From the NCBI RefSeq assembly GCF_013343005.1, contig NZ_CP054491.1:186001-250000 (forward strand): DNA of 64,000 bases, given 5' to 3'. The translations under genes and the position numbers were made by a program. Positions within the stretch are counted from its first letter, which is position 1. The number at the start of each line of letters is the position of its first letter. The stretch comes from Candidatus Reidiella endopervernicosa. GTDB taxonomy: Bacteria; Pseudomonadota; Gammaproteobacteria; GCF-013343005. This document shows positions 21,763 to 26,131 of this stretch, piece by piece. The notes under the pieces were generated by a model that saw only the letters and a list, made by a program, of their open reading frames with translations, did not search any database and was not told where the DNA came from.

Positions 21763-22209
21763 TTACACCGGTTTAACCTGCAACCAGAAGGTCACCGGGC
21801 CATCGTTGGTCAATGAGACCTGCATGTCGGCACCAAAGCGCCCTGTAGCCACATCGGGATGATTGTTTTCCGCCTCTGCAACAAGATAATTGAACAGCCG
21901 TTCGCCCTCATCGGGGGAGGCAGCCGGAGTGAAGCTGGGGCGCATTCCCTTTTGCGTATCGGCTGGCAGGGTGAACTGCGGCACCAGCAGCAGGCCACCA
22001 TCGATATCGGTCAGCCCCAGATTCATCTTTCCATCATGATCAGGAAAAACGCGATATCCGAGCAGCCGCTGCAGGAGTCGATCGGCCTGCGCTTTGCTAT
22101 CGTTCCGCTCCACGCCGACCAGCACCATCAGACCCCGTTCAATCACACCCACCGACTCTCCCGACACCACCACCTCAGCCTGGCTAACACGCTGCAGCAG
22201 TCCGATCAC
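21763..22209 (-). CDS. dtd: D-aminoacyl-tRNA deacylase Dtd
   Basis: Dtd hydrolyses D-aminoacyl-tRNAs, a proofreading step. The 148-residue product has the family start [15 protein letters not shown], the [16 protein letters not shown] motif near residue 78 and the Gly-cisPro motif [11 protein letters not shown] at the C-terminus. The usual SQFTL reads PQFTL here. Its start overlaps the iminopeptidase stop by 4 bp. Confidence 0.96.
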
Positions 22210-23156
22210 GCCAGCATCCCCGCCATCGCGTCGCTGGCTCGAATCAGTGCGTCGACAATGCCAGGCTCTGTCGCAGAGTGACCGGCATCAGCGATGACCT
22301 CAAGCTGCGCCTCAGGCCATGCCTGGTGCAGCGCCCACGCCTGTGACAGGGGGCAGACGAGATCGTAGCGCCCATGCACGATCACACCTGGAATACCGGC
22401 CAATTTACCTGCATCTCGGAGTATTTGATTGGGCTCGAGAAAACTGTCATTTACAAAGTAGTGCGCCTCAATCCGCGCCAGACTGACGGCGGTATGGGGA
22501 TCGCCAAAATGGTCAACCACTGACCGCTTCGGCAGCAGCGTCGAACTGTACCCCTCCCAGAGTGACCACGCCTTCGCCGCCGACATTGCCGCTACTTCAT
22601 CATCACCGGTCAGGCGACGGTAGTAGGCGTTAACCATTTCATGACGCTCCACCTCAGGGATCGGTGCAATGAACTGTTGCCACTGGTCGGGACAGAGACG
22701 GTCAGCCCCTGACTGATAAAACCAATCGATATCCTCGGGGCGACAGAGAAAAATCCCTCGAAGGATCAACCCTGCTACCCGATCGGGATAGGTCTCGGCA
22801 TAGACCAGCGCCAGGGTCGAACCCCAGGAACCACCAAATACCATCCAGCGCTCGATACCAAGCTGCTGTCTAATCGTCTCAATATCAGCCACCAGCGCCT
22901 GAGTCGTATTACCCTCGAGCGCGGCATGTGGCGTCGATTTACCGCAACCTCGTTGATCGAACAGCACTATACGATAGCGCTCCGGATCGAAAAAACTACG
23001 GTGGTATTTCTCACAGCCAGACCCAGGGCCACCATGCAGGAAGAGCACCGGTATACCGTCAGGATTGCCACACTCTTCAACGTGTAGCTGATGGGGTGAA
23101 TCCACTGTCAGCGTATGGGAAACATAGGGCTGCAGTGGTGGGTAGAGTTGTCGCAT
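22206..23156 (-). CDS. pip: Proline iminopeptidase
   Basis: This 316-residue alpha/beta hydrolase of peptidase family S33 removes N-terminal proline. [20 protein letters not shown] near residue 41, the nucleophile elbow [15 protein letters not shown] near 107, the acid region [10 protein letters not shown] and the catalytic His in [10 protein letters not shown] are all clear. It is upstream of dtd and translationally coupled to it. Confidence 0.95.
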
Positions 23157-23243: not shown

Positions 23244-23261
23244 CGTAAGAAAATGCTTACA
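23244..23261. promoter_or_regulatory. GacA-type upstream activating box
   Basis: CGTAAG-AAAATG-CTTACA matches the GacA box TGTAAG-N6-CTTACA at 11 of 12 defined positions. It stands about 70 bp before the inferred start of a small RNA, the distance usual for rsmY/rsmZ/csrB promoters. Confidence 0.75.
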
Positions 23262-23320
23262 CAAGCTGTCGTCTCTACCTGACTGTATCGGGACGTCCCC
23301 TGTGCGAATATTCACTTGCA

Positions 23321-23492
23321 CCAGGTAAGGATGCTCGGTGTGAAGCAGGAAGCTTACTGAGGAATAATAATTTCAGGTAACAGGGATGCCAGAAGTTAAC
23401 AAAACCTCAGCGGCCAGGACGGCCACTCATCAATCGCCTTCCAGCCAAGAAAGGCAAATGATTACCCCCGGCTTTAGTCGGGGGTTTTTTTT
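23321..23492 (+). ncRNA. Candidate CsrA-sequestering small RNA (RsmZ/CsrB type)
   Basis: A stretch of about 170 bases without coding potential carries five GGA motifs (GGA at 23329, 23348, 23361, 23384 and 23417). At least two sit in hairpin loops: AAGC-AGGAA-GCTT (23343-23355) and GGCC-AGGAC-GGCC (23412-23424). It ends in a strong intrinsic terminator. A TATTCA -10-like box at 23309-23314 and the GacA box upstream fit a GacA-controlled promoter. CsrB/RsmZ RNAs titrate the translational repressor CsrA through such loops. The exact 5' end is inferred. No csrA or gacSA is in the window. Confidence 0.7.
23465..23492 (+). terminator. Intrinsic terminator of the candidate small RNA
   Basis: CCCCCG (23465-23470) pairs with CGGGGG (23479-23484) and is followed by eight T residues. 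Confidence 0.9.
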
Positions 23493-23655
23493 GCCTCTCA
23501 TTCAGGAACCAAGCCCACAAGCGCCTGCATCCAACCTGTGTCACGCCAACGGCAACTGGCAGCCTCCCATGTGCTCATGGGATTAGACGGACACAAAAAA
23601 GGCGCACCCACACCCATTGTTGAGTATGCATACGCCTCTACGATTCGACTATCGA

Positions 23656-24129
23656 CTAAGGACGGACGTAGGCGTAACCGGCCTCCTGAAGCTCCATAAT
23701 CCGCGCCACACCGGCGGGGACGATCTGCACACCCTCAGCCAGCGCCACCTGCTTGCCTGATTTCTTCTCCATCTTCGACTTGGTATTGCCGCAGGCGCTG
23801 AAGGTTATATCCTGCATCGCCAGGCTCGAGACACGCGACTGATGTGCGCTCGACTGGGTCAACATACCGAGACCGGGTCCGTAGGCAACAATCTCGACAT
23901 CGACATTATCCATACCATAGTGTTTCTGTAGATTGACCGCGTTGTTCATCGCAATCGTCTGTGTCTTGGCATCGTTACTGCTGACCTGGATGACAATTTT
24001 ATGTTTCGATACTGCGGCCTCAGCCATTGCCGCATCTCCACTCTTACCCTCCGGGGTACAGCCCACCAGCCCAAGTATCAAGCCAGATAACAGCGCGAGC
24101 AGGCTAACTTTCAATTTTTTTCCAAACAT
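23656..24129 (-). CDS. DsrE-family lipoprotein
   Basis: The 157-residue product has a lipoprotein signal peptide with lipobox LGLVGC (Cys near residue 24), then a DsrE/DsrF-like fold: KIVIQVSSNDAKTQTIAMNN, VDVEIVAYGPGLGML and a Cys in ITFSACGNT near residue 112. Members are common in sulfur-metabolising bacteria, but exported versions have unknown roles. A T-rich, promoter-like upstream region separates it from typA. Confidence 0.85.
   Translation of the reverse strand: MFGKKLKVSLLALLSGLILGLVGCTPEGKSGDAAMAEAAVSKHKIVIQVSSNDAKTQTIAMNNAVNLQKHYGMDNVDVEIVAYGPGLGMLTQSSAHQSRVSSLAMQDITFSACGNTKSKMEKKSGKQVALAEGVQIVPAGVARIMELQEAGYAYVRP

Positions 24130-24319: not shown

Positions 24320-26131
<1,812 letters not shown>

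Follow-up and report, generated by a model that had tools for sequence, protein, structure and literature searches.

A stretch of DNA lying between the pip and typA genes of the gammaproteobacterium Candidatus Reidiella endopervernicosa, analyzed here within a genomic segment of 64,000 nucleotides (hereafter the window), very probably encodes a GacA-activated, trans-acting sponge RNA of the Csr/Rsm type, about 170 nt long, that would titrate CsrA. The locus is real and old, because a GacA-type palindrome followed by a GGA-rich RNA recurs upstream of pip in other bacteria. According to the proposed mechanism, a kinase of the GacS/BarA type would phosphorylate and drive GacA (UvrY), which would then bind the palindrome at 23244-23261 and activate transcription from near 23320, the RNA ending at its terminator at position 23492; four hairpins would present GGA motifs in their loops to dimers of CsrA, the binding of which would titrate this protein away from its mRNA targets. 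Titration of CsrA by GacA-activated RNAs is established for RsmX/Y/Z and CsrB/C (PMC7652899); for the window RNA we infer that it is transcribed in dependence on GacA and that it binds and titrates CsrA. The features of the locus are listed in table 1.

Table 1. Genes, predicted RNA elements and regulatory site of the pip-linked locus (positions are those of the window)
Feature	Position	Strand	Basis
dtd, D-aminoacyl-tRNA deacylase; adjoins pip also in L019	21763..22209	-	TIGR00256
pip, prolyl aminopeptidase; divergently oriented neighbour, used as anchor for synteny	22206..23156	-	TIGR01249, 446 bits
GacA/UvrY-type upstream activating palindrome, CGTAAG-AAAATG-CTTACA	23244..23261	.	Consensus match and relatives
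Predicted Csr/Rsm-type small RNA, ~170 nt	23320..23492 (5' end estimated)	+	Fold z, loop GGAs, box-to-end length
Predicted CsrA-site hairpin, GGUA-AGGA-UGCU	23324..23335	+	Minimum-energy fold
Predicted CsrA-site hairpin, AAGC-AGGAA-GCUU	23343..23355	+	Minimum-energy fold
Predicted CsrA-site hairpin, GGUA-ACAGGGA-UGCC, including ACAGGGAUG	23376..23390	+	Minimum-energy fold and SELEX consensus
Predicted CsrA-site hairpin, GGCC-AGGAC-GGCC	23412..23424	+	Minimum-energy fold
Conserved 3' module, AUCGCCUUCC then hairpin GCC-loop-GGC	23433..23455	+	Position in relatives, covariation, matrix rank
Intrinsic terminator, 9-bp stem and eight U	23464..23492	+	Stem 23464-23485, then T run
Small putative lipoprotein between sRNA and typA; DsrE-like by eye only	23656..24129	-	ORF
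typA/bipA	24320..26131	-	TIGR01394, 940 bits

The palindrome agrees with the consensus TGTAAG-N6-CTTACA at 11 of 12 bases. Taken alone it is weak evidence, since the genome of 3.45 Mb contains six such boxes with one mismatch and about three are expected by chance (an estimate scaled from the expectation in shuffled sequence). On the plus strand there is no recognisable sigma-70-like promoter, so that the start of the RNA, around 23320, is only estimated. Within the RNA thus delimited, GGA motifs are found at 23329, 23348, 23361, 23384 and 23417, with an additional one at 23291 that is probably upstream of the start. Their number is not in excess of that in shuffled sequences, as many or more being present in 259 of 1000 sequences shuffled by mononucleotide and in 105 of 300 shuffled by dinucleotide. 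Four of the five, however, lie in hairpin loops of 4-7 nt in the minimum-energy fold, a count that none of 1000 dinucleotide shuffles reaches (mean 0.23), and the predicted fold is unusually stable (z = -4.0); these two properties make the combination of features not weak, even if each feature is weak singly. In the hairpin at 23376-23390, ACAGGGAUG matches exactly the ACARGGAUG core of the CsrA SELEX consensus, RUACARGGAUGU (PMC7652899). The hairpin at 23412-23424 resembles the GACC-AGGAY-GGUC of the relatives L148, L026, L027 and L201 described below. The elements reported in the sequence-only reading, namely a near-perfect GacA palindrome, five GGA motifs with at least two in hairpin loops, and a strong terminator with eight T residues, were all recovered, four of the GGAs being in loops. 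Its description of the stretch as non-coding holds as well, for no ORF of at least 60 aa occurs inside the RNA apart from a 66-aa ATG frame (23386-23586) that reads through the terminator.

The genome, a single contig of 3,446,950 bases rated 100% complete, also encodes the proteins with which such an RNA would operate. It has one csrA gene, for a canonical CsrA of 60 aa, and a GacA/UvrY ortholog that matches NF007018 at 305.9 bits (the NCBIfam equivalog cut-off being 280); both are genes on whose presence the sequence-only reading had made its proposal depend. A frame of 1001 aa at 2278157-2281099 aligns to the BarA model starting with its first positions, at a score below the cut-off, and its assignment as the BarA/GacS kinase is plausible.

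Searches by sequence did not retrieve relatives of the RNA. At gathering threshold no Rfam family matches it, and the models of RsmY (RF00195), PrrB/RsmZ, CsrB (RF00018) and CsrC (RF00084) give no match in the window up to E = 10, which is the negative outcome of the Infernal comparison with CsrB, RsmY and RsmZ models that had been proposed as a check. Matches at permissive thresholds were terminator-like chance matches only. Similarly, blastn of the sRNA against 55 and 368 other gammaproteobacterial genomes found no homolog, the matches obtained being terminator fragments and short chance matches.

Relatives were instead found by synteny. A search for pip in named contigs yielded no close relative of the source organism and brought up L019 (PABG01000131.1, a metagenome-assembled contig), which has the same dtd-pip order, a perfect box, TGTAAGCCCAGGCTTACA, and an RNA-sized stretch whose terminator ends 251 nt after the box begins; GCCTTCCAGCC is common to this contig and the window. 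At the place of the lipoprotein ORF of the window, which has no match in NCBIfam, L019 carries a different DsrE-like gene. GacA-type palindromes lie directly upstream of pip in members of about ten other families. They occur in 10 of 127 sampled pip-upstream regions, while 179 permuted palindromes had 0.11 occurrences on average and only two of them reached high counts (seven each), both being degenerate overlaps of the same sites. The relatives with a pip-linked palindrome include L148, L159, L196, L201, L207, L208, L209, L214, L226, L241, L243 and L253, to which L026, L027 and L029 from named contigs are added, together with the weaker cases L232 and L248; most of the pip-bearing genomes sampled have no box. 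Nearly all boxes of the relatives conform to TGTARG-N6-CYTACA, and nearly all are followed by a GGA-rich RNA with a terminator, many of these RNAs being strongly enriched in GGA and ANGGA. L159 shows only one GGA hairpin in the loop test and no excess over shuffles. The gene following the sRNA in L148 and L196 has, by eye, a typA-like 3' end; in the window typA follows beyond the small lipoprotein gene. The predicted small RNA of the window occupies a corresponding position in the genomes of other Gammaproteobacteria, with a sequence that has changed almost beyond recognition.

The form TGTAGG-N6-CCTACA replaces TGTAAG-N6-CTTACA in L026, L027, L029, L196, L201, L207, L208, L209, L214 and L243, a variation which suggests that the specificity of GacA may have shifted in those lineages.

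The same comparison bears on the possibility that the palindrome is a site for GacA, or another regulator, serving the divergent pip gene, the RNA then being a transcribed spacer with a terminator. The start codon of pip is only about 88 bp from the box, which lies upstream of this gene, and the box stays beside pip in the relatives. Nevertheless, the distance from box to pip varies widely among them, whereas on the far side a GGA-rich RNA with its terminator ends 218-296 nt from the box in the main relatives (249 nt in the window), and a spacer would not be expected to hold four loop GGAs; we therefore consider this explanation very unlikely.

Aligned over their full length with MAFFT, the relatives give a trustworthy result only at the box, the 3' module and the terminator, unreliability elsewhere precluding a covariance model. 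In most lineages the 3' module consists of AUCRCC or close variants, situated 51-63 nt from the RNA end, and then a short hairpin. The latter has 87% standard pairs (counted as cells) in an alignment of 12 sequences, which fall to 10-37% when it is slid by 1-3 columns, and both sides have changed at three of its four pairs. The window element ranks first among 127,968 positions for a matrix derived from the relatives without the window, although the segments of these relatives were picked partly for their resemblance to it. An AUCRCCU(U/C)CC-like element at a near-fixed distance from the 3' end is seen in the window (23433-23442) and in L241, L232, L208, L207, L209, L148 and L159. Several relatives read AUCACCUCC in the module, a sequence identical to the anti-Shine-Dalgarno end of 16S rRNA. 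It is conceivable, if rather doubtful, that the pip-linked RNAs form a family of Csr sponges with an anti-Shine-Dalgarno-like module (AUCACCUCC, or AUCGCCUUCC in the window) and a dual function, combining CsrA titration with pairing to ribosome-binding sites of mRNAs.

A different proposition is that the molecule is a terminator-ended sRNA acting by base pairing, for instance via AUCGCCUUCC, and not mainly as a CsrA sponge. AUCRCCU is indeed the most conserved sequence of the pip-linked RNAs besides the box, with AUCACCUCC recurring in several of them, and the number of GGAs is within the range of chance; yet four GGAs in small loops, one of them in an exact SELEX-core site (PMC7652899), combined with a GacA-type box constitute the architecture of a sponge, and we give base pairing as the main activity little credence. 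Chance assembly, in which a GacA-like palindrome would have arisen at random close to an ordinary terminator and for which the genomic frequency of one-mismatch boxes (six against about three expected) and the unremarkable GGA count could be cited, is the least probable explanation, a highly improbable one given the syntenic recurrence, the loop placement of the GGAs and the covarying 3' hairpin. The identification of a Csr/Rsm-type small RNA is supported by its architecture, the presence of csrA and gacA/uvrY, the loop GGAs and, most of all, the recurrence next to pip of box, GGA-rich RNA and terminator in several further families of Gammaproteobacteria.

As to known systems, the sequence-only reading had likened the stretch to rsmY, rsmZ and csrB, a comparison that stands for the box, the loop GGAs and the terminator and fails for the Rfam models. 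The predicted window RNA shares architecture and a probable mode of action with RsmY, RsmZ, CsrB and CsrC, and not demonstrable descent, because their models do not match it. It resembles RsmY/RsmX/RsmZ of Pseudomonas (RF00195 and relatives) in its GacA-type palindrome, several loop GGAs, Rho-independent terminator and size, but differs from them in the lack of an Rfam match and the extra AUCRCCU 3' module. The Pseudomonas loci presumably have another genomic address than pip-typA. Distant common descent with RsmY is possible, since the relative L148 weakly resembles the RsmY model (25.9 bits over its full length; gathering threshold 57). With CsrB/CsrC of Enterobacteria (RF00018, RF00084) the window RNA has in common loop GGAs and, putatively, binding of CsrA under BarA-UvrY, but it is shorter, unmatched in Rfam and has five GGAs, whereas CsrB has 22 (PMC7652899). 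RgsA of Pseudomonas is likewise a GacA-influenced sRNA, but its single GGA motif, its dependence on RpoS and the absence of the palindromic box set it apart (PMC2375449).

Another candidate Csr RNA is present elsewhere in the genome, at C1:2692716-2692872 on the minus strand (L008:1167-1323). A one-mismatch GacA box (2693050-2693067) precedes by about 190 nt a stretch with nine GGAs and a strong terminator; the GGA count is modestly high, being reached in 21 of 1000 mononucleotide and 76 of 500 dinucleotide shuffles, and the candidate has no match in Rfam and no blastn homolog in 368 genomes. Four more one-mismatch boxes are located at C1:371852, 477695, 2041854 and 2952839 (L005, L006, L007 and L009), two of them upstream of apparent genes, a response regulator-like ORF (L006) and a small ORF (L009). 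These four may possibly be direct GacA targets or chance occurrences.

The literature searched on pip/typA and on other genera describes no Csr RNA at this locus, even if older predictions may include members. RNAs of this kind are well known; the pip-linked family itself does not seem to have been described, either in Rfam or in the literature searched. Csr/Rsm RNAs diverge rapidly and are therefore missed by sequence and Rfam searches; the pip neighbourhood combined with a GacA palindrome provides a practical finder of this regulator among Gammaproteobacteria that have not been cultured, and a concrete clue to a second activity is offered by the 3' module that the pip-linked RNAs share.
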